A stretch of 28,924 nt of DNA, taken from IMG/VR virus record IMGVR_UViG_3300008120_000692, positions 1 to 28,924 of that record. The stretch is one strand, 5' to 3'. A program made the translations under genes and the position numbers. Source of the DNA: a virus. Of the stretch, positions 4,087 to 28,685 are shown piece after piece (position 1 is the first letter of the stretch; each line of letters starts with the position of its first letter). Below the pieces are notes generated by a model that did not search any database, was not told the origin of the DNA, and saw nothing but the letters and a program-made list of their open reading frames with translations.

Positions 4087-4782
4087 ATGTACCGAAACAC
4101 TGCCGGAACACTGAAAGTCTTCGCCTTTAACCGGTCTACCAACGCGCCGGTGACTGGCGATGCCGCGAACATCACTTGCCGAGTCTCACTCGACGGTGGG
4201 GCTCGCTCTGCGCTTACGGACACCAATCCGACTGAGCTTGAGGACGGCTATTATCTGTTCGATGTGACGTCAGCAGAGACCAACGGAACCACCGCAGACT
4301 TCTTTCCGGAGTCCTCGACCAGTGGAGTGCAGGTGATCCCGGTCGAGCACGGTCGGTACTTGTCGCTCGAAAAAGCGATCGCGGACAAGACCAACACGAT
4401 CACCGCTGGCAAGGTTTCCTATGCTGGCCCAGTCACCGCGAAGGGAACCGTCGACCAAATCATCATCGGCGACGATTACCTCGCGGCCCATGGTACTGCA
4501 TTCGTCTGGACGATCTCCGCGATTCCTGGCATGTCTGCTGGGGCGGTTACCGTCCACTTCGGTGGGAAAAACGGAACCAACGCATTCGCGGTCACCGGAT
4601 TTGCCACGGACATCGGATCGGGCAAATGGACGCTCACTTGCGAGATGCCACGCGCCGCATCGGGCCAGCTTGTTTCGGGTGAGTACGTCTATTCCGTCGC
4701 TGTCCACAACGCTGCGGGCGTGGAATTGACCCGGGTCTATTACGACGAACCGCTCGTAGCCGTGGAGAAATTCACCCCATGA
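4087..4782 (+). CDS. Predicted phage structural protein with Ig-like modules
   Basis: A 231-residue, strand-rich protein starting MYRNTAGTLKVFAFNRST. It looks like two beta-sandwich modules: residues about 5-95 (ending IPVEHGRYLSL) and about 110-230, with a short helical linker between. The first module resembles the N-terminal Ig-like domain of phage baseplate upper proteins, but the similarity is by pattern only. Its last four bases overlap the start of the next gene (ATGA at 4779). Probably part of the tail or its adhesion apparatus. Confidence 0.5.
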   Translation: MYRNTAGTLKVFAFNRSTNAPVTGDAANITCRVSLDGGARSALTDTNPTELEDGYYLFDVTSAETNGTTADFFPESSTSGVQVIPVEHGRYLSLEKAIADKTNTITAGKVSYAGPVTAKGTVDQIIIGDDYLAAHGTAFVWTISAIPGMSAGAVTVHFGGKNGTNAFAVTGFATDIGSGKWTLTCEMPRAASGQLVSGEYVYSVAVHNAAGVELTRVYYDEPLVAVEKFTP

Positions 4783-5342
4783 ACGTGACATTTCAGGTGC
4801 GAGAATCGTTCTTTGATCGCCCTAAGGTGATCACAGCACTCAAGCGTGCGAAACGCAGGGCATTGAGCAAGGCGGGTGCGTTTGTTCGCAAGCGTGCGAG
4901 GTCCTCGCTGCGTAGACGCAAACGAGCCTCGGCCCCAGGATCCCCACCATCGGCACACGCTTCGTCGTCGCAACCAAGTCTCAAGACAATCCTGTTCGCT
5001 TTCCAGCCAGCAAGCGAATCGACAATCGTCGGCCCAGTGCAACTCAACCAGGTCAACTTCACCGTCGAGTCGGTAACCAGCACAGTGCCTGGCCTTCACG
5101 AGCGTGGTGAGACAGCGATCATTCGCGAGTATCGATACGCTCCGATCGAAGGCGACAGTGCGTCCGTGAATTGGCGACGCGTCGACGGCAGACGCAGATA
5201 CGACGAGCGGCCTGGTTATCGATTCGAATCTCGCCGTCGCACGGCTCGGTACCCCAAGCGTCCATTCATGCGTCCAGCGCTCGAGGCTGAAGCACCCAAT
5301 TTTGCTGAGCTGTTCCGCAATTCGATTACCAGCGTCAAATAG
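4779..5342 (+). CDS. Tail completion/HK97 gp10-like protein
   Basis: A 187-residue, very basic protein. The N-terminus is a long Arg/Lys-rich helix (KRAKRRALSKAGAFVRKRAR), followed by a Pro/Ser segment, a beta region, and the C-terminal motif YPKRPFMRPALEAEAPNF. A basic helical start plus a terminal R-PFxRPAL-type motif is typical of HK97 gp10 and minor tail Z proteins, which join or complete the tail at its head-proximal end. Here it sits just before the tape measure gene instead of beside the tail tube gene, so the family call is tentative. The ATG overlaps the previous stop (ATGA). Confidence 0.5.
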   Translation: MNVTFQVRESFFDRPKVITALKRAKRRALSKAGAFVRKRARSSLRRRKRASAPGSPPSAHASSSQPSLKTILFAFQPASESTIVGPVQLNQVNFTVESVTSTVPGLHERGETAIIREYRYAPIEGDSASVNWRRVDGRRRYDERPGYRFESRRRTARYPKRPFMRPALEAEAPNFAELFRNSITSVK

Positions 5343-5351
5343 GACTCCAAC

Positions 5352-7451
5352 ATGTCGGCAGCAATCAAAGCAGGCCAGGCCTACGTCGAGATCGCCACTA
5401 AACAAGGCGCGTTCGATAAAGGCATGGCACAAGTCCAAGCGGCCATGGGTCGGCTGAAAGCAGTCGCCACGAGCATGGGAACTGGGATCGGCAAGGGCTT
5501 TGCCTCGGCTCAGGGTGCTCTATCCTCGTTCTCCAAATCGGTCGTCAGCTTGCCGAGCATGATCGCTGGATCGATCGCGGTAACCGGCCTGGTCGCAATG
5601 GCCAAAGGATTTGCCGATGCCGGGTCCGCCGTCGATGACATGGCCCAACGTACGGGAATGGGTGCCGAATCTGTCTCGGCTCTTGGTTATGCGGCCAAGA
5701 TGAGCGGCACGGACATCGGTGCGGTCGAAAAGGGTGTGCGTAAGATGCAGCTAAGCATCGCTGACGCTGCTGCTGGTGCGCCCGATGCAATCGAGAAATT
5801 TGCTGCTATCGGCTTGAGTGTCGCCGATCTCCAAAAGATGACTCCAGACCAGCAGTTTATTGCGATCGCGGACAAGCTCTCGAAGATCGAGGATCCTGCC
5901 CTCAAATCGGCTGCTGCCATGGAATACTTCGGCAAGTCCGGTGCGGACATGGTTCCGCTGCTGTCCGAAGGCGGCGAAGGGATCCGGCGATTGATGGACG
6001 ATGCGAACCGACTTGGACAGACCATGAGTGGCGAAGACGCTGCCGCAGCCGGTCGGCTCGGTGATGTGTTCGATCAATTGTTCGGCGTCATTGGTGGGCT
6101 GCAAAACAGAATCGGTGCTGCTCTCGCTCCGACACTGATCAGCCTCGGCGAAAAGATTATTGGCACAATTTCATGGGTATCGGATTGGATCAGCAACAAT
6201 CGAGAACTGATCGTCACCATTGCCCAATGGACTGCCGTAGGAGCTGGCTTGGTTGCGGGATTGATTGCACTTGGTGGAGCCGCCGGAATCGTTGCCGCAG
6301 GAATGACGGCAATCGCCACCATTGGATCTGTCGTCGGAACGGTCTTTGGAGTGATCGCTGGAGCAATCGGAATGATCGTCTCGCCAGTGGGCCTGGTTGT
6401 CGCTGGACTCACCGCCGCTGCGGTAGCAGCGTTGTATTTTTCTGGAGTCGGTGGTGAGTTGGTTGGCTACCTCGGGGCGAAATTCACAGAGCTCAAGGAC
6501 ATCGCTCTACCGGTCTTCGACGCGATCAAGACGGCTCTGACCAGCGGTCAGTGGGCTGCTGCAGGGAAAGTCGCCATGACTGGATTGGAATTGGTGTTTC
6601 GCGTTGCAACACGAGATCTCTACGCTGGATGGTTGGATTTTACGACGGGAGCATTAAACGCTTGGACTACGTTTAGCGCGGAGGTATCTGCGGGTGGTGT
6701 TGGTTTCGTTGCCAATCTAATCAACATACTCGCGGGGATTCCGACAGGTATTGCCAAGGGGTTCGCGACTGCAATGGTTTGGCTCGAAGGAACGTTTGAC
6801 CAGACAGTGAACTGGATCGCGAAGAAGCTGCTCTATCTCTACTCGCTGATCGACAAATCGGTCGACTACGAAAAGGCAGCAAAGCAAATGGATGTTGAGG
6901 CCTCGAAGCGAGCGGCTAGTCGTCAACAAGGACTTGATTCTGCCAATGCAAAGCGAGATGAGGAATTGCAAACTGCAAATCGCGGTCGTCTCCAAGTTGC
7001 TGCAGAAATGCAAAACACGATTCGCGGAAATGCTCAGCAAACCATGCAAAATCGAGCGGACGCGAATGAGGCATCGCTTGCTGGTTTCAACCAACGAATC
7101 GGTGAGCTTACATCCTCGCTGCAAAGTCAGACTCAGGAAATCAACAAAACCGCACAGCAGAACCCTGGTGGGTTCATGGGGTTCTTGCAGGGCGTTTTCC
7201 AGGGTGTAAGCAAAACGATTGAGAACGCTGCATCTCAGACATCCAAGCGTCAAATCCCAACTTATGAGCAAGTCAAGTCGACCACCGCAACGCAAATGGG
7301 TGGAACTTTCAGTGGCTTCGGAGCAGAGCGACTCGGAACCAACACATCGGCCCTAGATCGAGTGGCGGATCAGACTGCGAAAAGCAACCAATTGCTCGCA
7401 CAGATCGCGAAAAACACTAGTCAATCTTCATCGATGAGCTACGGATCCTAA
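5352..7451 (+). CDS. Tail tape measure protein
   Basis: A 699-residue protein, the longest of the tail block. The N-terminal 250 residues are Ala/Gly-rich helices with the usual opening (GQAYVEIATKQGAFDKGMAQ) and a conserved-looking core MAQRTGMGAESVSALGYAAK. Residues about 286-363 are a long hydrophobic stretch, expected to form several membrane-spanning helices during DNA ejection. Residues about 500-600 are coiled coil with few hydrophobics and many Gln and Asn. This layout is diagnostic of tape measures, which set tail length and fill the tube. At roughly 1.5 Angstrom per residue the tail would be about 100 nm. No lytic peptidase or lysozyme domain is visible. Confidence 0.88.
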   Translation: MSAAIKAGQAYVEIATKQGAFDKGMAQVQAAMGRLKAVATSMGTGIGKGFASAQGALSSFSKSVVSLPSMIAGSIAVTGLVAMAKGFADAGSAVDDMAQRTGMGAESVSALGYAAKMSGTDIGAVEKGVRKMQLSIADAAAGAPDAIEKFAAIGLSVADLQKMTPDQQFIAIADKLSKIEDPALKSAAAMEYFGKSGADMVPLLSEGGEGIRRLMDDANRLGQTMSGEDAAAAGRLGDVFDQLFGVIGGLQNRIGAALAPTLISLGEKIIGTISWVSDWISNNRELIVTIAQWTAVGAGLVAGLIALGGAAGIVAAGMTAIATIGSVVGTVFGVIAGAIGMIVSPVGLVVAGLTAAAVAALYFSGVGGELVGYLGAKFTELKDIALPVFDAIKTALTSGQWAAAGKVAMTGLELVFRVATRDLYAGWLDFTTGALNAWTTFSAEVSAGGVGFVANLINILAGIPTGIAKGFATAMVWLEGTFDQTVNWIAKKLLYLYSLIDKSVDYEKAAKQMDVEASKRAASRQQGLDSANAKRDEELQTANRGRLQVAAEMQNTIRGNAQQTMQNRADANEASLAGFNQRIGELTSSLQSQTQEINKTAQQNPGGFMGFLQGVFQGVSKTIENAASQTSKRQIPTYEQVKSTTATQMGGTFSGFGAERLGTNTSALDRVADQTAKSNQLLAQIAKNTSQSSSMSYGS

Positions 7452-7454
7452 ACT

Positions 7455-8276
7455 ATGAGTGCATGGACGCATCTTCCGATTGACATCCTAGAGACAGCGG
7501 AATCGCGAGAAACCGATTTCGATTTGCGGGGTGGGATGAAAACCCAAAACCGCATCGCAATTGTCACTGGGTACACAGAGCCAGAAGACGCTGCGCAGGC
7601 TGCGGTTGATCTACCTGGAACGCCATTCCCTTTGATCATTTCAGCGACGTCCACCACTCCTGCCTTAGCAATGGTGTCCGCTCGAGCAAAACCGCTAACG
7701 CCCAACGCTTGGGAAATCGTTTTCGGTTACGAGTCGCGATCTATCGAGACATGGAACTATTCCGGAACGACTCTCGGCAAAACTCAAAACATCACTCAGT
7801 CTTACGGGACAACGCGGTACGGAGCATCTGCTCCCGACTATGGTGGAGCTATCAACGTCGACAGGGATGGTGTTCGAGGGGTCGAGGTTGGAATTCCTGG
7901 GTTGGAATTTCAAATCGAAAAAACCCTAAGCCGAGGCGTTTTAACTTTTGCGTACGTTTTGACACTGGTGAATTTGACCTACAAGACCAATGCCGCAGCC
8001 TTTCGCGATTTCGCTGCTGGTGAACTTTTGTTCCTCGGTGCCGAGTTCCGCCAGTCGAGCAATGCTGAAGTGACCGTTGTTTTCAAATTCTCAGCTTCTC
8101 CCAATCGAACTGGCTTAGTCTTTGGTACAATTAGCGGTGTTGCCAAGAAGGGGCACCAGTATCTGTGGGTCGATTACGAAGCCTGGGAAACCGGGGGATA
8201 CGTCATTCGTCGACCGCGCGGAGTGTACGTCGAAGACGTGTACGAGTCAGGGAATTTCAACCTCCTAGGAATCTAG
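7455..8276 (+). CDS. Tail tip protein following the tape measure
   Basis: A 273-residue protein beginning three bases after the tape measure stop. It is strand-rich, with many aromatic residues and segments such as EIVFGYESRSIETWNYSG and FLGAEFRQSSNAEVTVVFKF. Genes directly after a siphovirus tape measure usually encode the distal tail protein and baseplate hub, so a tail-tip role is the best guess. The C-terminal part (KKGHQYLWVDYEAWETGGYV) looks like a compact beta domain. I do not recognise a named family. Confidence 0.5.
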   Translation: MSAWTHLPIDILETAESRETDFDLRGGMKTQNRIAIVTGYTEPEDAAQAAVDLPGTPFPLIISATSTTPALAMVSARAKPLTPNAWEIVFGYESRSIETWNYSGTTLGKTQNITQSYGTTRYGASAPDYGGAINVDRDGVRGVEVGIPGLEFQIEKTLSRGVLTFAYVLTLVNLTYKTNAAAFRDFAAGELLFLGAEFRQSSNAEVTVVFKFSASPNRTGLVFGTISGVAKKGHQYLWVDYEAWETGGYVIRRPRGVYVEDVYESGNFNLLGI

Positions 8277-8283
8277 CCCCTTC

Positions 8284-8901
8284 ATGACCTTTTCCGGCGA
8301 TCGATTCATGCCATCCGTAATCGCAAAAAACGAAACTGGTGCCGATCTCGGCATCGGCAAAGCTGCTTTGATTCGGATCGGACAAGGCTACTTCAACACC
8401 GAGACTATCCCTCGCAAGGATCCCGAATACCGCCGGGGCTACTACAGACTGTCCGCTTTGACCCCATGTGTATCGGGAGAGACTCCATACTTCGAGTCAA
8501 TGGCGGTATCGATCGAGCCTATACAGAATGGAAAATTTGGAGTGGTAGCGATCGAGGGATTAGCCATCGCAAATTATGCTGCCCCTCAAAGTGGATTCGT
8601 GCATCCAATTTCTGGAAACAACGTTGCCGGCAGTATGTTTGGTTTTGCAAATGTCGTTACCAAGCCTCAAGACGGTCTTCATTTTGGCGTGTGGGATCTT
8701 TCTTGCCGCGCAATGCAGGCACCGTATGAGCTCACGACAAACTGGTCTGCAGGAAGCGCAACCGCGACCATCGGTAATTGGTCGACGCCGATCTTAGACT
8801 CTTTCAACATAGCTAGTTGGCAAACCACTGGCGATAAAGGAATGGCCGTGTGGACGAGTGGGTATTGGCGTGTGATCACTCCTTGGTGCGTGGGGGAATA
8901 A
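8284..8901 (+). CDS. Predicted tail tip/virion protein
   Basis: A 205-residue, mainly beta protein seven bases after the previous gene. An ATG at 8284 gives MTFSGDRFMPSV; an internal ATG at 8308 (MPSVIAKNETG) is an equally possible start. The sequence from there (ADLGIGKAALI, later GKFGVVAIEGLAIANYAAP) resembles small phage beta-sandwich proteins. It has only two Cys, in contrast to the next gene. No enzyme motif or signal. Role inferred from place in the tail block. Confidence 0.5.
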   Translation: MTFSGDRFMPSVIAKNETGADLGIGKAALIRIGQGYFNTETIPRKDPEYRRGYYRLSALTPCVSGETPYFESMAVSIEPIQNGKFGVVAIEGLAIANYAAPQSGFVHPISGNNVAGSMFGFANVVTKPQDGLHFGVWDLSCRAMQAPYELTTNWSAGSATATIGNWSTPILDSFNIASWQTTGDKGMAVWTSGYWRVITPWCVGE

Positions 8902-8902
8902 C

Positions 8903-9967
8903 ATGGTCGCGATACCTGATCTGACCTGCACCTGGTGCGACGCCGAGGAGCAGCAAAAGAAACGCCACACCTGCCGAGACGGCAACTGCAGACGTGCCAA
9001 GTTGCGAAACCGCACTTGGAACATGACCGTGACGAACAACACTCGTTTTGTCTGCGTGGCAACCGCGAACAATACCATGTTCCAATCGATCAATGCCTGC
9101 TGTGATCGCATTCGAGCTGGCTGCGGATCGCAAGTCGATCGAAACGGAATCTATCGTTGGCGACGCTATGAGTACGCGTACAACTCGATCACGCAAAAGG
9201 CTCGGTATTGTGGCAATCCAACAGCGAACGAGTGTTACCAGTACGGACCTATCACGGTTTGCAATCGAACGGTTCAATACGCTCAAATGTGTGTCCTCGG
9301 TTGGCGAATGGTGACAACACTGAGCTCAGTAGACCTGTACATTTCGAGGACACCGCCTCGCTACAACTGCGAGCCAGATCGATGCCAATACAGATTGGCA
9401 CTCGTGATTGACGGAACCATGGGCCTGTCGTGGGCCAACCAGGTCACCAATGGATCCAATGTCACAAACAACAGCACCGCTGCTTTTTGCGGCGTGGTGG
9501 ATTGTCCTGATGGACCGTTAGGTGTCTGGCCAATTTCGTCGCTCCCAAGCTTCAACTCGAACCAGGTCCCGGTAACGCAACATCCTTTTCGATTCGTGCT
9601 GCGTCGCAGCGTCGATGTGTTGGAGTTCCCGATGGTGTTTGATGCGACCGGCGCGGTCGAAGTCACTTGTGGCCCCAAATGCGCGTCGAGCATTGGCAGC
9701 ATTTCGCTAAATCTTTCCGATCCCCCCGAGTTCGAATGCACCGCCCCGACCGGCCTGCCACCGACCTCTGGAGTGCCTCCCAACCCAAACGACCCTTGCC
9801 AACAAATGAGTTGCGAGGAGCTAATGGAAAGATGCACGGGCCTGTTGCCAATTGATTTCGTGTGGGGGTCGAGCACACTGATTTCATCGTCCGATAGCGG
9901 TGTCATGACTCCAGGCAGCTTGCCCAATCCGTTTATCCCAGCGTCTTGGACGGTAGATCTATCATGA
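8903..9967 (+). CDS. Cysteine-rich predicted virion protein
   Basis: A 354-residue protein with 22 cysteines by my count (about 6%), far above its neighbours. The N-terminus has CTWC, then C-x4-C near residues 24-29 (CRDGNC), and later CC, then spaced Cys to about residue 190. Residues about 195-270 have few Cys and look like a beta domain. The C-terminal part has paired Cys (CGPKC, DPCQQMSC) and a Pro-rich linker. No signal peptide. The Cys pairs could form disulfides or bind metal; the sequence does not decide. Its end overlaps the start of an Erv/ALR sulfhydryl-oxidase-like gene by four bases (ATGA), which hints that disulfides matter. No known family recognised. Confidence 0.6.
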   Translation: MVAIPDLTCTWCDAEEQQKKRHTCRDGNCRRAKLRNRTWNMTVTNNTRFVCVATANNTMFQSINACCDRIRAGCGSQVDRNGIYRWRRYEYAYNSITQKARYCGNPTANECYQYGPITVCNRTVQYAQMCVLGWRMVTTLSSVDLYISRTPPRYNCEPDRCQYRLALVIDGTMGLSWANQVTNGSNVTNNSTAAFCGVVDCPDGPLGVWPISSLPSFNSNQVPVTQHPFRFVLRRSVDVLEFPMVFDATGAVEVTCGPKCASSIGSISLNLSDPPEFECTAPTGLPPTSGVPPNPNDPCQQMSCEELMERCTGLLPIDFVWGSSTLISSSDSGVMTPGSLPNPFIPASWTVDLS

Positions 9968-11124
9968 TGCAAGATCTATTCGGCCATCCAATTCGATCCG
10001 GCACCTTTACGACTTCCATCGTCGATGGGATCACGGGCCAAGTCCATGAATTCGGCGAAGATCTTTACCTGGATCCCTCTCAGCGAGAAACCGGATGGCC
10101 GGCAATCCACTTGTACGCTTTCCGCAATCAGTCCAAATGGAGCTCTGACGCAGCCCGAGAGTGGTTTGCTGAATGGCTTCGGTGGAGTCTGCCAGGTGGT
10201 TGCGATTGCTCAGCCCACTGGGGCAAGACGATCAAGCAATACCCGCCTTCCTTCGACGATCCGATGGGCTTTTTCTATTGGACGGTAAATGTTCACAACA
10301 GCGTCAACGAGCGGATCTCCATCGATGGTAGCCACCCAATCATTCCACCTGCCCGCGCATTCGAGATTTGGTCGAGAATCGCCGAGGCCGGGCAGGTGGC
10401 TTGGTTTCGTCCTGTGAATGATACCATCAACGGCGGTCGCCGTCTTGTGATCACCATCGCCACTGGCAAGGGCCGCGAGTGGCTTAAGGTGACAGGCGAT
10501 TCGATGCAAGCTTACGCAGCTCGGGTGGGAGCGGATTTTGTTGCCCTGCAGAACACAACCCAAGGCTGGTGGGGGCTCGAAAAGTTTCGCGTCCACGAAT
10601 TCGCCAAGCAATACGACGAGACGCTGTACCTCGATGCAGACATCCTCGTCACTGAGGCTGCCGACGAATCGATTTTCCAGACCGAGGCAAGCGTTTCGAT
10701 ACACGACGAATACAGCTATTTGCCGGCAACTGCATGGGTCGAAGCATCGGTAAAGCTAGTTTCGAGTTGCCTCGATTACACGCCCAAAGATAGGCAGTTT
10801 TTGCGATCGCTTAATTCTGGAGTCGTACACTGCAAGCGATCTGGTGCGGATGTGTGGATGCCGCCCAAGTTGCCGATTCCAACGAGCCACGTTGCCGAGC
10901 AGACTGTTGTCGGGCTCAACTTCGATCGTTTGCAAGTCGCCAAACGAATGTTTTCGAGACTTAGAAACGCGCAGTGCTGGCACCCTCGTTTTGCTTCACT
11001 GCTGCACAACGCTCAATTTGTCCACGCTTCTGGAAAGCAGAAGAAAACCGAGTTGCTTCGATCGCTCGTAGAGCAGCTTCGGGAGGTCGGAAACCCGCCG
11101 CTAACACTCACCCCAAAGGATTGA
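9964..11124 (+). CDS. Erv/ALR-like sulfhydryl oxidase domain fused to a GT-A-type glycosyltransferase
   Basis: A 386-residue, two-domain protein. Residues about 40-130 match the Erv1/ALR pattern: GWPAIHLYAF (the W..H segment), a C80-D-C82 pair followed by SAHW, and H111-N-S-V-N, the FAD-binding HNxVN motif. Erv enzymes use FAD to make disulfides and pass electrons to oxygen. The active pair is CxC, not CxxC. Residues about 160-290 resemble a GT-A glycosyltransferase (GT8-like): RLVITIATGKG at the start and YLDADILV with a DxD metal/nucleotide-sugar motif at D224-A-D226. The ATG at 9964 overlaps the previous stop (ATGA); a TTG at 9946 would add six residues. Substrate, acceptor and location are unknown. 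The oxidase call is well supported by motif order, the GT class less so. Confidence 0.65.
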   Translation: MMQDLFGHPIRSGTFTTSIVDGITGQVHEFGEDLYLDPSQRETGWPAIHLYAFRNQSKWSSDAAREWFAEWLRWSLPGGCDCSAHWGKTIKQYPPSFDDPMGFFYWTVNVHNSVNERISIDGSHPIIPPARAFEIWSRIAEAGQVAWFRPVNDTINGGRRLVITIATGKGREWLKVTGDSMQAYAARVGADFVALQNTTQGWWGLEKFRVHEFAKQYDETLYLDADILVTEAADESIFQTEASVSIHDEYSYLPATAWVEASVKLVSSCLDYTPKDRQFLRSLNSGVVHCKRSGADVWMPPKLPIPTSHVAEQTVVGLNFDRLQVAKRMFSRLRNAQCWHPRFASLLHNAQFVHASGKQKKTELLRSLVEQLREVGNPPLTLTPKD

Positions 11125-11128
11125 GTCG

Positions 11129-11635
11129 ATGAGATGCCCACGCCTGCTTGGTCTTATGACTCGCGCTCGAGTGATTTTCGCTCGCGAGGCAAACACGCTC
11201 TCGATCCAATTGCCAGACGACAGCGAGATCGACCTGGTGCTCATCGATTGCTTCACCCCTCCGCTGCTGGAGAAGGTCGATCATTATCGAATCGAGAACG
11301 GTGAAAAGCTTCTTTTCCACAAAGAGCGCCCCAACCGGCTAGGTGTTGAAGCACTCAAGGTAACGACTGCAGCGATTGCCAAGATGCCCACTTGGACGCG
11401 AGTCTTTTTCCCGACACCTCGCAACGATCGCGAGTGGTTTCGCAATCTGAAGCCTGGATCGAAGCAGCCAGGCCACATTTGGATAACTGAGTCACAGACA
11501 CTGAATGAGCATCTGGTACAGGCTGGAGTGGCCACTGTCACTCAGCCAGACTACGGATCCCCAAATTTCGACGGTCAAAAGTTCGCCACCAGTCAGGAGG
11601 ATGTTCGCTTATGGTCGTTTTCTGCGCAGAACTAG
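11129..11635 (+). CDS. Staphylococcal-nuclease-like (thermonuclease fold) protein, probably inactive
   Basis: A 168-residue protein. The order DLVLIDCFTP (residues 35-44), GVEAL (72-76) and LNEHLVQAGVA (125-135) matches the SNase fold pattern, in which the last segment ends the barrel and GxEA carries a catalytic Glu. A clear equivalent of the second catalytic Arg is missing: the segment before LNEHLV reads PGHIWITESQT where active enzymes have GR. It could be a nuclease with altered chemistry or a binding protein. The gene follows the Erv/GT gene by four bases, preceded by AAAGGA. The family call is moderate. Confidence 0.5.
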   Translation: MRCPRLLGLMTRARVIFAREANTLSIQLPDDSEIDLVLIDCFTPPLLEKVDHYRIENGEKLLFHKERPNRLGVEALKVTTAAIAKMPTWTRVFFPTPRNDREWFRNLKPGSKQPGHIWITESQTLNEHLVQAGVATVTQPDYGSPNFDGQKFATSQEDVRLWSFSAQN

Positions 11636-11868
11636 AGCACTTGCTCGATCACACTGCTGGCCCACAAGGCCGGTACCGAAGACAGCCAAGAAACACTGGC
11701 CCAACGTGCAAGTGTTGTGGCGCTCCCTACGTGGCTCGATCGACACGACCACGGATCACTTACTACTACCCTCGATGCCAATGTGCTCCGAGGCATGGAA
11801 TTCCAAAGCTTCGCCCAAGCAGATTCAACCATGGCCAAGAAACCTCCAGCAGCAGCTCCAGCCGATGA
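11611..11868 (+). CDS. Small zinc-ribbon protein
   Basis: An 85-residue protein overlapping the previous gene by 25 bases and the terminase start by 38, in a different frame from both. The core reads PTCKCCGAPYVARSTRP then YYYPRCQCAP: two Cys clusters about 25 residues apart, the layout of small phage zinc ribbons related to Com and Ogr-type proteins. It probably binds metal and nucleic acid. The Ser-rich C-terminus past residue 75 overlaps the alanine-rich start of the terminase and is probably constrained by it. Small size and double overlap lower confidence. Confidence 0.45.
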   Translation: MVVFCAELEHLLDHTAGPQGRYRRQPRNTGPTCKCCGAPYVARSTRPRITYYYPRCQCAPRHGIPKLRPSRFNHGQETSSSSSSR

Positions 11869-13894
11869 TTTCGACGACGAGGACGAGGTCGACAACAAGC
11901 GGCCTCGTGATTCGTATAGCAAACATCGTAAGCGACAGGCTTCCAAGGCAAAGGAAGAATCGACCGAAGCTCGTGACATTGGCCCGATCCCTGCGATCGT
12001 CAATCCAAAGCGACGCGAGTCCTGTCGTAAAGACCTGAAGCGGTTCCTGCTGACGTACTTTAAAGAATCGTTTCCGCTGCCTTTTTCGCCAGACCATGAG
12101 CGAATCCTTAAAGACATCGAACAACGCGCGATCGACGGTGGTTTGAAATGCATCGCTATGCCTCGTGGATCCGGCAAGACAACGATCTTGCTGCGAGCGA
12201 TGCAGTGGGTGCTGTGTTACGCGCACCGACGGTTTGGAGTGCTCGTTGAAGCAGACGAGGGTGCAGCCGAGGAATCGCTCGACGTGGTCAAAATAGAGTG
12301 GGAAACCAACCCGCTACTGCTCGAGGATTTCCCGGAGATCGCTTACCCCATTCGATGCCTCGAAGGGATCACCCAGCGAGGCAACGCCCAAACCACCAAC
12401 GGCAAGCGAACGCTGATCGGATGGAAACGCAAAGAGCTCGTCTTTCCAACCGTTGAAGGATCACCGGCAAGTGGTGCTGTCATTCGTGTGACGGGGATCC
12501 TGGGCCGAGTGCGCGGAATGCAAAAAGTAACCGCAGACGGCAAGACGCAGCGTCCGGATTTCGTCCTGGTGAACGACCCTCAAACCGACACGTCTGCATT
12601 ATCCGATCCAGAGTGTGCCAAGCGGGAAAAGGTGATTGGTGGAGCCATCCTAGGTCTAGCTGGACCTGGAAAGCGAATTGCAGGGTTTGGAGCAGTCACG
12701 GTCATTCGCGAGGGAGATGTCGCAGACCGGATGCTTAACACCAAGCTGATGCCCAAGTGGCACGGCGACCGCTGCAAGCTTGTCTATGAATGGCCAACGA
12801 ATACGGATTTGTGGGACAAGTATTTCGACCTGCGATCCGAGGAGATTGCAGAAGGAAACGACGAGCACCCAAAGGCGACCAAATACTACAAAGCTAACCG
12901 CAAAGAAATGGATGCTGGATCCAAGGTCGGCTGGGAGCATCGGAAGTACACGCACGAACTATCCGCGATCCAGCATGCAATGGATCTGCGGTTCGACAAC
13001 CCAGACACATTTGACGCGGAGTATCAGAATGAACCGAAATCAGCTGTTGTTGCTGTCGATGGCATGCATTGCCTTACGTCAGACGAATTTTGCTTGCGCA
13101 TACTGCCAACCCACCGTCGTGGAGAAATCCCCGACTGGGTCGAGCACATCACCCTCGGATGCGACGTCCAGGGATCTTCGCTCTGGTGGGTCGTCACTGG
13201 TATCGGTTCGGACTTTTCCGGACTCGTGGTTGATTACGGAATCTGGCCAGATCCTGGCATCGACTACATCACGCTCTCAGAGATCGATCGAACGATCATA
13301 CGAGCCACCGGAATCCGATCGCCCAACGAGTCGCTACTGGCAGCGCTGAACAAGCTTCGAGACGAACGACTGGCCGTCACGTACACACGCGATGACGGCA
13401 CGCAGCTGCGGCCAGAGATCATGGTCGTTGACGCTGGCTATCAGTCCGAGGTTGTCTATCGATTTAGCCAGCAGCATCAGCACGTGGTGCCCAGTCACGG
13501 TAAAGGGGTCACGGCCCGGCAGCGTCCATGGGCGATGGAAAAAAAGAAGGCAGGCGAGCGCATGGGATTCGGCTGGCGGATGCCTCCGACACGAGGAACC
13601 CGGGCCCCGCGGTACGCCTTGATCGACACTAACACCTGGAAGACCTCGATGGCCGAACGATGGACGACTGATGCCGGTGAGCCTGGTGCCTGGTGGCTTT
13701 ACGGCCGCGGTGGGTGCGTCGATCCTGGGAGTAAAAGTCCCCGGGGAGTCCGACCGAGTCGTCAAGCGACGCAAGATCTCGATGAGCGACCGCCAAAGCT
13801 CTCAATCAAGCGAATCCCGCGAGCAAGACGCATTTCGGGCTATGGGGTCAAAGACGGCCAACGATCGCTTCGAAGCCGTCATGGAAGCAGTTAG
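11831..13894 (+). CDS. Terminase large subunit, GpA-type, with aberrant C-terminus
   Basis: Read from ATG 11831 (MAKKPPAAAP) the protein is 687 residues; a GTG at 11717 would extend it through the zinc-ribbon gene and is unlikely. An acidic, charged N-terminal tail precedes the ATPase: Walker A PRGSGKTT at 111-118 and a Walker B-like PDFVLVNDPQ at 242-251. The nuclease half has TLGCDVQG (D445) and IMVVDAGYQ (D534). It cuts concatemers and drives DNA into the procapsid. The family reading is clear to WWLYG (residues 621-625, ending at base 13705). After that the frame gives an Arg/Ser-rich stretch with no family likeness, while another frame continues AAVGASILGVKVPGES, which looks like the true family C-terminus. 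A deletion plus frameshift, or a sequencing error, is likely (see 13704-13955). Confidence 0.8.
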   Translation: MAKKPPAAAPADDFDDEDEVDNKRPRDSYSKHRKRQASKAKEESTEARDIGPIPAIVNPKRRESCRKDLKRFLLTYFKESFPLPFSPDHERILKDIEQRAIDGGLKCIAMPRGSGKTTILLRAMQWVLCYAHRRFGVLVEADEGAAEESLDVVKIEWETNPLLLEDFPEIAYPIRCLEGITQRGNAQTTNGKRTLIGWKRKELVFPTVEGSPASGAVIRVTGILGRVRGMQKVTADGKTQRPDFVLVNDPQTDTSALSDPECAKREKVIGGAILGLAGPGKRIAGFGAVTVIREGDVADRMLNTKLMPKWHGDRCKLVYEWPTNTDLWDKYFDLRSEEIAEGNDEHPKATKYYKANRKEMDAGSKVGWEHRKYTHELSAIQHAMDLRFDNPDTFDAEYQNEPKSAVVAVDGMHCLTSDEFCLRILPTHRRGEIPDWVEHITLGCDVQGSSLWWVVTGIGSDFSGLVVDYGIWPDPGIDYITLSEIDRTIIRATGIRSPNESLLAALNKLRDERLAVTYTRDDGTQLRPEIMVVDAGYQSEVVYRFSQQHQHVVPSHGKGVTARQRPWAMEKKKAGERMGFGWRMPPTRGTRAPRYALIDTNTWKTSMAERWTTDAGEPGAWWLYGRGGCVDPGSKSPRGVRPSRQATQDLDERPPKLSIKRIPRARRISGYGVKDGQRSLRSRHGSS

Positions 13895-14706: not shown

Positions 14707-15231
14707 CTAAGACTCGCAGATGTTGAGTTTTGCACCATGCTCCCAAATGCAGAGCACGCACCCAAAGGGTGGCCTTTCATTTGGCTGTATAGCTTTCTGT
14801 CCAGGTTTTAGGAAACGCAATCTACCCGGGAGAAATTCCACGCGCAGAGGGCTGTCGATACGATCCCTGTACGGCTCTATGCCTTTTTGCCACCAAGTTT
14901 GTTCAGTCCTGTTTGCAGGTAACAGCAGAACAATCAAGCTTGCTTCCGTTTCCATCCAAGCTTTTTCTATCCACGGAAGAATATGGCTAAACGGCGGATT
15001 GCAGTAGACTCGCTCGCCTTTCCATGATTTTGACAATGCGTCATCATCAACCGTCCAATGCCGATCCAACTTGCGATTCTCGATCGAGGATGCCGCGTCT
15101 ATCGTAAATGCGAATCTTTCATTCAGTCGTTCAAAGTCTTCAATCGGCAACGCACGATCATCGACATTCTTGTTTGATCCAGCGTATCTGGTTTGCTGCG
15201 GATGATTTTTAGCCTTGAATTTAACAAGCAT
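14707..15231 (-). CDS. Phage DNA N-6-adenine methyltransferase (Dam family)
   Basis: A 174-residue protein of the phage Dam type. Residues 30-46 (IEDFERLNERFAFTIDAA) are the AdoMet-binding motif I region, and VYCNPPF at 75-81 is the catalytic N-P-P-F (DPPY class). The interval NRKLDRHWTVDDDAL between them is characteristic of this phage family, and EASLIVLLLPANRTEQTWW follows. Such enzymes methylate adenine, usually in GATC, and may protect phage DNA from restriction. The length is normal for the family. Located in the leftward early operon between small unknown genes. Confidence 0.85.
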   Translation of the reverse strand: MLVKFKAKNHPQQTRYAGSNKNVDDRALPIEDFERLNERFAFTIDAASSIENRKLDRHWTVDDDALSKSWKGERVYCNPPFSHILPWIEKAWMETEASLIVLLLPANRTEQTWWQKGIEPYRDRIDSPLRVEFLPGRLRFLKPGQKAIQPNERPPFGCVLCIWEHGAKLNICES

Positions 15232-15941: not shown

Positions 15942-16316
15942 TTAATTCCTGCTTGGCTTGATCCCGCTCAAAACGATACCAGCAATGCTCTGGTTGTTTG
16001 CAGCCACGACAGCCCGCAGCTGCTCGAGCTCGTGCTGCGAGGCAGACCATTGCATGTAGAGATTGTTGTAGGCCTCCTGTGCCATCGTACGGTGCTCACC
16101 GAGCTTACGTTGTGTCGATTGGAGCTCTGCCTTTACAGCATGCCCCCAATCGTTTGATCGCTGGAGCTCGTCTCGCAGTTGCTCAACTTCGTCGCGAAGC
16201 TTTCGCGATGCGTCGAAGATCGCCATCAGGAGGCCCGGGTGGGTCTCCCACTTGCCGATGAGCTCCATCGCCATGTCGACGGTGAGCGGGTTGTCGTCTG
16301 TCGTTGGATCGTCCAT
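15942..16316 (-). CDS. Coiled-coil phage protein, function unknown
   Basis: A 124-residue protein starting MDDPTTDDNPLTVDMAMELI at ATG 16316, which shares a base with the stop of the previous gene (TGATG). Residues about 35-105 form a long heptad-like helix (DASRKLRDEVEQLRDELQRS and onward), so it probably dimerises. A GTG three codons upstream is possible. Function unknown. Confidence 0.55.
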   Translation of the reverse strand: MDDPTTDDNPLTVDMAMELIGKWETHPGLLMAIFDASRKLRDEVEQLRDELQRSNDWGHAVKAELQSTQRKLGEHRTMAQEAYNNLYMQWSASQHELEQLRAVVAANNQSIAGIVLSGIKPSRN

Positions 16317-17542
16317 CAGTTGCACCTGCTCCCGCAGCTGGCGTACCCGGCCATGTCGACCCAGTTATCCCGTTTGCGCTGGTGGATCTCTCGCGAGCAC
16401 TTGAGCTGGATCATTGCCATGGCGACGTGCCGAGGCTCGAAGGCTTCGCCCTCTTTGCGCATGTGTCGGAACAACGCTGTCCACATTCCAGCCGTACGCC
16501 GGAAGTCCTGATCTGGAGGCCCATAAGTCGCTTGGCGATCGCCTCGGGTGATTTTGAAGGCCTCAGCAAGCACATCGTCGGATTGGCGAATGTCTTGGCT
16601 CGAGCACTCCGAGCACCCGCAATCGTCGTCGAGGTCGTCCTTGGGTTGTGAGCGCCGAGCGCCGTCTAATTCCCAGAGATTAGACAGCATGACTGCCATG
16701 TCTTGGGGATTGCATCGTGGGTAGCGAACATACCCAATTTTCTCGTCGTCTCCCACGTACACGAAACGAACGCTCTTTCCTGCCCAGACAGCCAAAGAGA
16801 ACTCGGCCACAGCACCAGCCGACATGTGCCACTCCGGCAGCATGACGATCTCGTCGCATCGCATCACAGCGTCAATGCAGCGACGCATGACTCGGCTGAA
16901 ATCCAATTGTTTCGGGAACACGCAGTTGTCCGGGTTGGCATACTTTGGATCGACCATCGGATCGAAACCATCTTGCTTGCGATCTTCGTCGGCAGGACTG
17001 ATGACTTCGTACCGCTGCTGAGAGAGCAAACAATCACGAACGCGGTCGAACATTTGGTAGTTGAAATAGGGGCGGCCCCGCATTGGGCCAGCAAGGTAGA
17101 GAACCCTCTTTCGTTGGATCGGTTCGGTTTCCGGATCTTTGTTTGAATCGTACGCGTTTTGCACCGTGTACCCGACCGTGATCTTTTCGGCAGACGACGC
17201 GTCTACATCCATTTTGCGAAAGAACCTAGCGTTTTCTCCATGTTGTTTGCCTAGTTCTTTTGCATCCAATACAGTCATCCCGATGGTGTTTTTGCAATCA
17301 GATAAGCTTTGGAAACTGCTTGCGATTTGATCTCCATCTTGAAGCGTTTCATGGTCTTGCAGTTCTCGAAGGTTCCCGAGATAGATTGCGTCGATAGGTT
17401 GCTCGGGCTCGGCGGTCTTGCACTCACTAAGGTGCGTCCACCATGACTTATCAGCATGTCCACAAACATGTACAGCATCGCCAAGTATCTCCAATACTTC
17501 GACTTGCGCCCAAACCTTATCGCCTTGCTTTAGCTGACTCAT
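16316..17542 (-). CDS. DUF4406-DUF6378 fusion protein (nucleotide-metabolism-like)
   Basis: A 408-residue protein starting at ATG 17542 (MSQLKQGDKVWAQVEVLEIL), behind a strong AGGAGG. Three parts are seen. Residues 1-50 are a small beta domain. Residues about 147-263 match DUF4406, a nucleoside 2-deoxyribosyltransferase-like fold: YLAGPMRGRPYFN, later CDEIVMLPEWHMSAGAVAEF with a candidate catalytic Glu at 247. Residues about 322-402 match DUF6378: DDVLAEAFKITRGDRQATYG and RDNWVDMAGYA. The two domains are usually separate phage genes, often near each other. A Cys-rich linker (CGCSEC at 308-313) lies between. A role in nucleotide salvage or modification is inferred from fold only. It overlaps the next gene by one base. 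Confidence 0.7.
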   Translation of the reverse strand: MSQLKQGDKVWAQVEVLEILGDAVHVCGHADKSWWTHLSECKTAEPEQPIDAIYLGNLRELQDHETLQDGDQIASSFQSLSDCKNTIGMTVLDAKELGKQHGENARFFRKMDVDASSAEKITVGYTVQNAYDSNKDPETEPIQRKRVLYLAGPMRGRPYFNYQMFDRVRDCLLSQQRYEVISPADEDRKQDGFDPMVDPKYANPDNCVFPKQLDFSRVMRRCIDAVMRCDEIVMLPEWHMSAGAVAEFSLAVWAGKSVRFVYVGDDEKIGYVRYPRCNPQDMAVMLSNLWELDGARRSQPKDDLDDDCGCSECSSQDIRQSDDVLAEAFKITRGDRQATYGPPDQDFRRTAGMWTALFRHMRKEGEAFEPRHVAMAMIQLKCSREIHQRKRDNWVDMAGYASCGSRCN

Positions 17543-17577
17543 CCTCTCATCCTCCTGAAAACCGAACCAAAGAAACC

Positions 17578-18621
17578 TTACGCTGCTCCCCTGCGGATCA
17601 GCGGTGATAGATACGAAACACCTTCGATGATCGGGATCTGCAAATTCAGATGCCCTAGACCACGCTGCACTAACTGGATCCCATAGCCGTTGACCCAGTC
17701 GGTTAAGTTTTGATGCATCCAGTACGGCTGGAGCTGGCAAAGACAACCAGGATTCCAGGCTCCGATCGGCCCGGAATCGACCGTCCGCTTAGTGGCCAGA
17801 TCCATCCGGTGCGTGTGACCAAACCAAATGTTTGCGTTGTACTTGGCCAGGTGAGCTGCCGCAGCCGCTTTGCTCGTGTACTGGCCATGTGTGAAGTAGC
17901 AGTTGTCCCGCTGGATCGTGCCTGGCACCTGGCAGTTGTCGTACCACTTGCCTTGCTCAAACAGGGCGATTCCACGCTTCGGGAGCTGCAGCACGACGGC
18001 AGTCGAAAAGTAGCTGGCAATCAAGGCCACGTCTCGCTTGCCACCTTTGCCGGACTTTAGCGTATCGGTGACGATCCACTTCTCGATGCGTCGCTCGTGG
18101 TTCCCTTCAAGGTACTCGATCGTCGCTTGTGGAGCTGCCGACTGAAGCTCGTCGAGGAACTGGTTGGTTGCGTTGCAGTCGTCTTCAAAAGTGTAGTTCG
18201 CTTCGGCGACATAGCCCCACGTGTGGTGCTCGGCCAGGAACCCACCGCAGTCGAGGTGATCGCCCAGCATGATGATCGAATCCGGCTTGAGCATCCGAAT
18301 GTCGGCCAGCATTGCCGAAGCTGCTTGCTGGTCGATGAAGCATCCGTGGCTGTCTGGCACGATCACCCGCAGCGTCACGCCGCCCTTGGATGCTCGAGCC
18401 TTGCGATCCAGCCGGAGCTTGACGCGACTGCTACGCAAGTCTTGAAGTGTGTTTTCCAGTCGCTCGCGAGCCTTACGCTCGATCGCTAGCTGGTGCTTGA
18501 GCTGGTTGAGTTCCGCGCGAGCCGTCAGCAGATTCTGGTCTGCCGACTGCTGCTGGCGATGATACTCTTTGACCGCTTTGGACGTCGACCAGCGAGGTTT
18601 TTTGGCTGGTTTATTCCCCAT
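17578..18621 (-). CDS. Calcineurin-like metallophosphoesterase with N-terminal coiled coil
   Basis: A 347-residue protein with every metallophosphoesterase motif in order: D90-x-H92 (PDSHG), GD121xxD124 (LGDHLDCGG), GNH175E (EGNHERR), H245 (THGQY) and GH269TH271 (FGHTHR). Two metals are expected to sit in these side chains. Residues 15-75 form a charged coiled coil (KAVKEYHRQQQSADQNLLTA on). Substrate unknown: phage members may act on DNA ends, RNA or nucleotides. The start ATG overlaps the stop of the previous gene by 11 bases. Confidence 0.85.
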   Translation of the reverse strand: MGNKPAKKPRWSTSKAVKEYHRQQQSADQNLLTARAELNQLKHQLAIERKARERLENTLQDLRSSRVKLRLDRKARASKGGVTLRVIVPDSHGCFIDQQAASAMLADIRMLKPDSIIMLGDHLDCGGFLAEHHTWGYVAEANYTFEDDCNATNQFLDELQSAAPQATIEYLEGNHERRIEKWIVTDTLKSGKGGKRDVALIASYFSTAVVLQLPKRGIALFEQGKWYDNCQVPGTIQRDNCYFTHGQYTSKAAAAAHLAKYNANIWFGHTHRMDLATKRTVDSGPIGAWNPGCLCQLQPYWMHQNLTDWVNGYGIQLVQRGLGHLNLQIPIIEGVSYLSPLIRRGAA

Positions 18622-27312: not shown

Positions 27313-27555
27313 ATGTCGGACGCCATTCAACCGCAGCTCGTCGCACTGCTCAACCAGTCGATCGAGGCTGCGGTCAGAAAATCTATCGTTCCCCGCGAAG
27401 CTTTTTCCATGCAAGAAGTCGCGGAAATTCTTGGTGTTTCGCTTCGCACGATCGAGGGCCTCGTCGACACCCAGCAACTGCGAGCCGTGCGCATCGGCAG
27501 GCATCTGAGAATCGACCGCAAGGAAATCGATCGGTTTCTTGGCCGTGAGAATTGA
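27313..27555 (+). CDS. Excisionase-family helix-turn-helix protein
   Basis: An 80-residue protein. Residues 30-77 are a MerR-like HTH_17: FSMQEVAEILGVSLRTIEGL, VDTQQLRAVRIGRHLRIDRK, EIDRFLG. Such proteins bind att DNA and steer excision or act as small regulators. Its stop overlaps the integrase ATG (TGATG at 27553-27557), typical of a xis-int pair. Confidence 0.8.
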   Translation: MSDAIQPQLVALLNQSIEAAVRKSIVPREAFSMQEVAEILGVSLRTIEGLVDTQQLRAVRIGRHLRIDRKEIDRFLGREN

Positions 27556-28685
27556 TGGGATCCATCTACAAGCACAAGCATCGAGGCTGGTATTGTTGCG
27601 TCGTCACACCGTCTGGCCGACGAGTGCAGATGTATCTTGGCAAAGTGACCAAGGCTGGTGCAGAAACCGTCCGTCGAAACATCGAGCGACTGCAAGCCAG
27701 CAACACCGTGGGAATCGAGCCCGATCCGCAGATCCAAGCGTGGATCTCACTTTGCAAGCCATCTTTTCGCGACAAGATGAAGGCAGCTGGTCTGCTGTCC
27801 AATTGGCGACCTCCCCAGGAAGCACCAAAGCTTTCCGTGGTTTGGGACGCCTATGTTTCTAAGCGAGCCGACTTTTCCGAAAGCAGCAAAAAAGGATTCA
27901 GAACGGCCAGAAAACATGCCATCGAGCATTTAGGGGATCGGTTGATCAGCGAGATTACCGTTTCGGATGCGAAGCATTTTGCACTCAAAATGGAATCGAC
28001 ATTCGCAAGTGCGACGGCAAAGAAAATCGTTGAGCGAGCCAAGCAAATCCTGCAAGATGCCGTCGATTCGAGGATGCTGACCCACAATCCATTTGCTGCC
28101 GTGACGATCCGTGCCAGGCTCGACAAGACACGCGGGCACCATGTGTCCGTTGAGGACGCAAAATTGATCCTCGATAAACTCGGGTCGCTCCAAGCCAAGG
28201 CTGCATTCGTCCTGGCTCGATTTGCCGGGCTGCGGATTCCACACGAGATCAGCTCGTTGACATGGAAGCATGTCGATTTCGAGAAGCATCGAATCACGAT
28301 TCCCAAGGATACCAAGACCGGCTTGCGCGTCGTCCCCATGGTACCAATCGTTTATAAGCACATGCTCAACCTTGCTGAGGCCGCCAGCGAATCACCTTGG
28401 GTGTTTCCGACTGGTCGGTGTTCCGCAGGCACCACGTACCGCAGATGGCTCGAATCAGCGATCCTGCTGGCCGGCCTCAAACAGTGGCCGAAGCTCTGGC
28501 ACAATCTGCGAGCTAGTTGCCGAACGGATCTTGAGGAACAATTCGCCTCTCACGTCTGTGATGCTTGGTTAGGCCACTCTACCAGGGTCGCAAAAGACCA
28601 TTACCTGATGGTTACAGACGAGCATTGGACGAAAGCAACAGGGCAGGGGGCTGCCAAGAAGAAGACCACCAAGACCAAGAAATGA
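27555..28685 (+). CDS. int: Tyrosine-type site-specific integrase
   Basis: A 376-residue protein from ATG 27555. Residues 1-50 are a basic arm-binding start (GSIYKHKHRGWYCCVVTPSG), 90-185 a SAM-like core-binding domain (WDAYVSKRADFSESSKKGFR), and 190-376 the catalytic domain. Catalytic residues: R227 (FAGLRIPHE), K254 (TKTGLR), H316-x-x-R319 (WHNLRASC), H341 (WLGHS) and nucleophile Y350 (DHYLMV). It catalyses phage integration and excision through a Holliday junction. The Lys-rich tail (KKKTTKTKK) is unusual. Overlaps the excisionase gene. Full length and apparently intact. Confidence 0.93.
   Translation: MGSIYKHKHRGWYCCVVTPSGRRVQMYLGKVTKAGAETVRRNIERLQASNTVGIEPDPQIQAWISLCKPSFRDKMKAAGLLSNWRPPQEAPKLSVVWDAYVSKRADFSESSKKGFRTARKHAIEHLGDRLISEITVSDAKHFALKMESTFASATAKKIVERAKQILQDAVDSRMLTHNPFAAVTIRARLDKTRGHHVSVEDAKLILDKLGSLQAKAAFVLARFAGLRIPHEISSLTWKHVDFEKHRITIPKDTKTGLRVVPMVPIVYKHMLNLAEAASESPWVFPTGRCSAGTTYRRWLESAILLAGLKQWPKLWHNLRASCRTDLEEQFASHVCDAWLGHSTRVAKDHYLMVTDEHWTKATGQGAAKKKTTKTKK

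Follow-up and report, generated by a model that had tools for sequence, protein, structure and literature searches.

Many, but not all, sulfhydryl oxidases of the Erv1/ALR type have a distal shuttle cysteine pair, and the viral members (ASFV pB119L, mimivirus R596, and poxvirus E10R) are used by the virus for its own structural proteins. The signature of the family is a CxxC redox pair next to FAD (PMC10598087); the redox motif of Mia40 is CPC (PMC8557897). Among glycosyltransferases, the PBCV-1 capsid enzyme (PDB 2p6w, 2p72, and 2p73) is a virus-encoded protein of GT-A fold that modifies a virion protein, while glycogenin and LgtC represent the GT8 family. Cyanophages have genes for virion glycosylation; in S-CAM7, for example, a cluster for glycans and a tail fibre has sugar-synthesis genes beside the fibre gene and encodes a glycosyltransferase with weak homology (E 5e-4) to the one described here.

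The window, by which we mean the whole stretch of 28,924 nucleotides analysed, carries a gene whose predicted product joins domains of both kinds. Its N-terminal half resembles Erv1/ALR oxidases in profile, in a helical bundle, in an invariant Cys pair, and in the W/H and HNxVN residues of the flavin site, and we propose that it likewise acts on the virus's own structural proteins. Unlike these enzymes, it has CxC in place of CxxC, has no shuttle cysteines, and is fused to a glycosyltransferase; moreover, the phage Erv proteins occur in tailed phages, whereas the described ones belong to eukaryotes or their viruses. The C-terminal half shares the GT-A fold with the PBCV-1 enzyme and may, like it, modify a virion protein, but the PBCV-1 glycosyltransferase has no oxidase domain, belongs to another host and virion, and is only ~15% identical. 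With GT8 members it shares the DxD motif, the fold, and weak Pfam similarity, although the window protein itself scores under the GT8 cut-off. S-CAM7 differs in its large myovirus-type genome, and no Erv domain is shown there.

Results

An Erv-like domain and a glycosyltransferase domain in one reading frame

The initial annotation described the reading frame at 9964-11124 (+ strand) as an Erv-type oxidase fused to a glycosyltransferase. The frame is present and intact up to its stop codon (11122-11124), every motif named for it is in place, and both domain assignments hold: the Erv part by Pfam, by profile searches against the PDB, and by predicted fold, and the GT part by its DxD motif and predicted fold. 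The product has 386 aa from the ATG at 9964 and 385 aa from the ATG at 9967; counted from the latter Met, the motifs lie at residues 43-52 (GWPAIHLYAF), 79-81 (CDC), 110-114 (HNSVN), and 221-228 (YLDADILV). The true start may lie a few codons away, as some relatives use an upstream in-frame ATG: L011 and L048 have no Met at the equivalent of 9967 and start about 8 codons further 5′, where the window has a TTG (9946) that is a possible alternative start. The ATGATG overlaps the TGA of the preceding gene (8903-9967), and the two genes are therefore translationally coupled. Median dN/dS in the window's clade (Erv part 0.21, GT part 0.14) indicates that purifying selection maintains both domains. 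Inspection by eye revealed no apparent signal peptide or membrane segment in the protein.

A first structure prediction, based on 7 close sequences, gave a pLDDT of 40 and was repeated with 52 diverse sequences. The resulting AlphaFold2 model had a mean pLDDT of 85 and a pTM of 0.70, with both domains confidently predicted: five helices within residues 43-141 (43-53, 60-74, 81-91, 99-117, and 128-141), followed by an alternating alpha/beta domain from residue 157.

The Erv1/ALR-like domain comprises residues 43-141 (10093-10389, + strand). The window's Erv part matched Pfam Evr1_Alr (PF04777) with E 5e-7 and 30.4 bits (cut-off 27.6); several close relatives score under the cut-off, and the family was matched individually by 14 of the 16 diverse relatives from which we built an alignment and profile of the domain (A7). 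Searched against the PDB, this profile detected Erv1/ALR chains at E 1.1e-9 to 5e-4 (best matches 2hj3, 1.1e-9; 3gwl, 7.5e-8; 1oqc, 2e-7), with nothing but Erv/ALR/QSOX proteins at the top of the list. The window protein alone has low identity to solved Erv proteins and reached E 0.0012 in a single-sequence search.

Conservation across A7 followed the family's functional positions. In the W-x-x-x-H motif WPAIH (10096-10110, + strand) the W is invariant and the H nearly so; both cysteines of the CDC pair (10201-10209, + strand) are invariant at identities down to 24-32%; and in HNSVN (10294-10308, + strand), which aligns with HNxVN of solved Erv proteins, the HN is invariant. Overall, the invariant residues were W, W, C, C, P, F, H, N, A, and W, and the nearly invariant ones the H of LH and the V of HNxV. 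In the alignment to Erv1/ALR the second Cys of CxC corresponds to the second Cys of CxxC, with a one-residue gap between the two cysteines. The window protein thus has CDC where the canonical CxxC is expected, and with just two Cys in residues 1-141 it has no distal shuttle pair. The predicted model shows the four-helix-bundle fold of Erv1/ALR, and a Foldseek search against viral models matched a predicted sulfhydryl oxidase of Fadolivirus, a giant virus, with a TM-score of 0.74 normalised to the target. Structure prediction and the conservation of the CxC pair had been proposed as tests of the Erv assignment, and both came out in its favour. As judged from sequence, homology to the Erv/ALR family is clear; since the CxxC signature is absent, we report the protein as an Erv-like CxC variant rather than a canonical member, and it probably works like an Erv oxidase. 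CPC is among the CxC variants found (L130 and L190). In 4 relatives (L066, L072, L092, and L131) a zinc-ribbon-like Cys cluster (C.CPHC...YVC.CG) lies N-terminal to the Erv domain and may serve as a shuttle or bind metal.

The glycosyltransferase domain comprises residues 157-373 (10435-11085, + strand), with pLDDT mostly above 90. Foldseek against the PDB ranked the PBCV-1 capsid glycosyltransferase first (2p6w; E 1.1e-6, TM 0.70 to the target). The DxD metal/nucleotide-sugar motif that had been noted in YLDADILV was confirmed as D223-A-D225 (10633-10641, + strand) within a predicted GT-A fold, and the pattern was present in all 137 GT-containing protein records longer than 300 aa that were examined, a count that includes repeated records. 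A C-terminal histidine, H353 (11023-11025, + strand), is invariant in two GT alignments (A6 and A8), and at ~32-38% identity the relatives conserve DxD, N-S/T-G, EQ, and this late His. Against Pfam GT8 the window protein scored 12.2 bits (E 0.13; cut-off 24.3), while the relative L130 passed the cut-off with 26.4 bits; the GT profile matched glycogenin and LgtC weakly in sequence.

The fusion recurs in uncultured phages

IMG/VR was scanned with the GT domain (66 loci, then the best 80 of 308 relatives) and with the Erv domain. The same fusion, for which the initial annotation had suggested a search, was found in many other contigs: 51 distinct Erv-GT fusions were collected, together with 16 distinct stand-alone phage Erv proteins, the clearest of which matched Pfam at E 9e-14. 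Close relatives with the fusion share 51-75% identity in the GT half and about 57-60% in the Erv half, and many of the distant GTs (34-41% identity) also carry this Erv-like domain on their N-terminal side. Of these 67 Erv proteins, 65 have CxC as redox pair and 2 have CxxC, and more CxxC relatives were found beyond this set. All sequences are metagenomic, with mechanical gene calls in the relatives, except for a GT-only fragment near the tail fibre of S-CAM7, which was the sole match among 50,697 deposited phage records; these records yielded no Erv-GT or stand-alone Erv. PHROGs contains no Erv family, and we found no paper on an Erv-type sulfhydryl oxidase of a tailed phage in the open-access literature. 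The Erv-domain tree is too weakly resolved to place the GT fusion as having a single or multiple origin.

A host origin of the Erv domain gained no support in planctomycetes: PF04777 was found in none of 294 genomes by a search that detected 10 of 13 of these phage records and is thus sensitive but not perfect. Profile A7 likewise gave no match in 392 genomes, with 10 candidates scored per genome. However, Pirellula is listed among the bacteria with the Erv/ALR family (PMC10598087), so a host or prophage copy may yet exist.

At the corresponding genomic position the GT domain is also found in other architectures. In Pirellula-binned contigs and in viral contigs related to them it lacks Erv and is joined to a mannosyltransferase-like domain (PF11051, 2e-30); upstream of this fusion come the gene for a protein of Ser-Gly repeats (41% Ser, 26% Gly) and a small gene rich in cysteine. 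Such Erv-less loci, with a fibre-like Ser-Gly-repeat protein beside the mannosyltransferase-GT fusion, were seen in L060 (4560-6712), L025 (4734-6712), and L077 (5478-6677); in L060 and L025 the fibre-like protein has ~40% Ser and the small cysteine-rich gene lies between. A reading of these upstream proteins as collagen-like was rejected in favour of Ser-Gly repeats. These architectures fit a GT module that provides tail proteins with glycans of variable kind; gene position suggests which protein carries the glycan.

The Erv gene is paired with a cysteine-rich gene

The gene directly upstream in the window (8903-9967, + strand) encodes a tail-module protein of 354 aa with 22 Cys, which we propose as the substrate. 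To place this neighbour in context, the cysteine content of upstream genes was compared across the 27 clusters with readable upstream sequence, GT-only groups included. The gene immediately upstream of Erv(-GT), usually overlapping it, had at least 5% Cys in 25 of the 27 clusters (median 7.1%), compared to 0 of 150 comparison genes from the same loci (median 1.1%); the GT-only Ser-Gly group (L077, 3.0%) fell below this value. The pairing also holds for stand-alone Erv genes without a GT, and the CxxC forms (L195 and L198-L202) occupy the same position beside the same kind of neighbour. The partners fall into ~11 groups without BLAST similarity to one another, so the link of Erv is to cysteine richness and not to one protein. 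Conversely, the GT-only loci L164, L168, L089 (5.0%), and L065 have a cysteine-rich upstream gene and no detectable Erv, so Erv does not accompany every partner of this kind.

In the window's clade (22 distinct partner proteins, down to 40% identity), 19 Cys columns are at least 95% conserved. Columns of this conservation hold 87% of the Cys, followed by Trp with 55%. A conserved cysteine-rich protein beside an Erv gene is what would be expected of an oxidase and its substrate. Nearly all clade members have an odd Cys count (21, 23, or 25), so a thiol must be left that is free, bound to metal, or engaged between molecules; the CxxC-type spacing at the N-terminus of the partner could bind metal. 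Searches of Pfam, NCBIfam, PHROGs, and the PDB with the partner returned nothing useful, so its tail role rests on gene position.

Discussion

The gene product is probably a bifunctional enzyme that matures the cysteine-rich tail protein encoded directly upstream. This reading builds on the homology and predicted fold of the two domains, on their conserved residues and the signs of purifying selection, and on the recurrence of a cysteine-rich neighbour in many phages. The Erv-type domain would bind FAD between its helices. Its CxC disulfide would accept the electrons of substrate thiols, which would travel through the flavin to oxygen, and disulfide bonds would form in the tail protein. As no signal peptide is apparent, disulfide formation would probably take place in the cytoplasm, before or during assembly, and since there is no shuttle pair the substrate may reach the CxC directly. 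Because the reaction depends on oxygen, the hosts are predicted to be aerobic. The GT-A domain would attach a sugar from a nucleotide-sugar donor to the same protein, on which both domains could then act jointly, or to a neighbouring fibre. Several points weigh against this scheme: the normally reducing bacterial cytoplasm, the replacement of the family-defining CxxC, the missing shuttle pair, the odd Cys counts and possible metal-binding spacing of the partner, its assignment to the tail by gene position, and the GT-only loci in which a cysteine-rich gene occurs with no detectable Erv. More tentatively, many uncultured tailed phages may carry their own CxC flavin-oxidase folding system, free-standing or fused to virion glycosyltransferases, that gives diverse cysteine-rich tail proteins their disulfides and glycans within the bacterial cytoplasm; it would be like the maturation line of giant viruses but phage-evolved.

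The departures from the Erv signature could also mean that the domain is a non-catalytic docking or metal-binding module, with two Cys and a conserved His, and keeps the cysteine-rich protein in place while the glycosyltransferase acts. The prevalence of CxC among the phage Erv proteins, the lack of shuttle cysteines, the conserved Cys, Cys, His, His set, and the extra zinc-ribbon-like cysteines of L066 and L072 would all suit such a module. We nevertheless find it unlikely, since W, H, and HNxVN of the flavin site are fully kept at low identity together with both cysteines, the domain also stands alone beside cysteine-rich genes, the CxxC forms share its position and neighbour, and a CxC can be redox active, as in the CPC of Mia40 (PMC8557897). 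That the Erv resemblance is a chance motif match in what is only a glycosyltransferase draws on the low identity to any solved Erv and the weak single-sequence score; the Pfam score above the cut-off, the exclusively Erv/ALR/QSOX top of the PDB list, the stand-alone relatives, and the confident helical model leave it practically no probability, and we rejected it as effectively refuted by the profile evidence.

The acceptor could likewise be another than proposed. Phage glycosyltransferases that alter host surface sugars are well known, and the phage is probably temperate, so the fusion might, in infected cells, modify the surface of the host or one of its proteins. The initial annotation had left a virion-protein maturation enzyme and a host-surface modifier side by side; the cysteine-rich neighbour strongly favours the former, and a host target now seems quite unlikely given that the gene lies inside the tail module, overlapping that neighbour and not in a lysogenic-conversion position, that no export or membrane signal is apparent by eye, and that the pairing recurs with many unrelated cysteine-rich partners. 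Sugars are S-linked in glycocin peptides, and a GT adjoining a cysteine-rich protein with odd Cys counts might place its sugar directly on Cys sulfur while the Erv domain sorts which cysteines stay free. We regard this as very improbable, because the Erv-less GT relatives adjoin Ser-Gly-rich fibre-like proteins, which suggests a Ser acceptor there, and because the nearest fold is that of a capsid glycosyltransferase.

If the maturation of the cysteine-rich tail protein is indeed the role of the fusion, phages can produce disulfide-rich proteins for their virions in a compartment regarded as unfavourable for this, and can link disulfide formation and glycosylation in one polypeptide, and CxC is a new active-site variant of a well-studied flavoenzyme family. 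The adjacent genes would also provide an enzyme-substrate pair that can be tested directly, a way to study such cysteine-rich tail proteins in uncultured phages, and possibly a tool for producing disulfide-bonded proteins in bacteria.

Genomic context and related loci

The tail module is anchored by a tape measure protein (5352-7451, + strand; best named PHROG match 2.7e-38). Close relatives share the gene order tape measure, two tail genes, cysteine-rich gene, Erv-GT, small gene, and terminase. The small gene, which is conserved in synteny (11129-11635, + strand; 168 aa), has weak SNase similarity under the Pfam cut-off (E 0.064), and the terminase large subunit (11717-13894, + strand; phrog_38, 2.8e-27) has a disrupted frame relative to a nearly identical sister record, L002 (IMGVR_UViG_3300008450_000194). 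Compared to L002, the window is without ~143 bases near 13702 (13702-13703), which shifts the terminase frame, and without ~99 bases, in frame, near 8317 in a tail gene (region 8284-8901); these deletions are natural or an assembly artefact. Other genes encode an integrase (27552-28685), consistent with a probably temperate phage, a Dam-type methyltransferase (14707-15231), a putative phage metallopeptidase (21666-22511), and, on the − strand, a DUF4406 and DUF6378 protein (16316-17746) with PHROG matches that are nucleoside deoxyribosyltransferase-like and phosphofructokinase-labelled.

The description of the virus as a planctomycete phage gained indirect support: a contig binned as Pirellula, possibly a prophage or a virus binned in error, carries a related tail module (identity 38% for the tape measure and 43% for a tail gene), pointing to a host in the Planctomycetota.

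Further variation was seen among the relatives. In the phages with a canonical CGEC Erv (L199-L202), a large Gly-Pro-repeat, collagen-like gene lies downstream of Erv (4676-8029). L110 and L130 (676 aa) extend the Erv-GT fusion by a C-terminal part with weak phosphoribosyltransferase similarity, seen in L110, and an apparent HAD-like motif, identified by eye; this part possibly adds ribose to the glycan. Finally, a small domain of the pattern ~NCGC..R..M(N/D).WG...C..N, for which L164 gave no Pfam match, recurs in the C-terminal parts of L164, L140, L089, and L168 and in L025 (6161-6712); it is either fused to the GT or encoded by a separate gene, and may replace the Erv domain.
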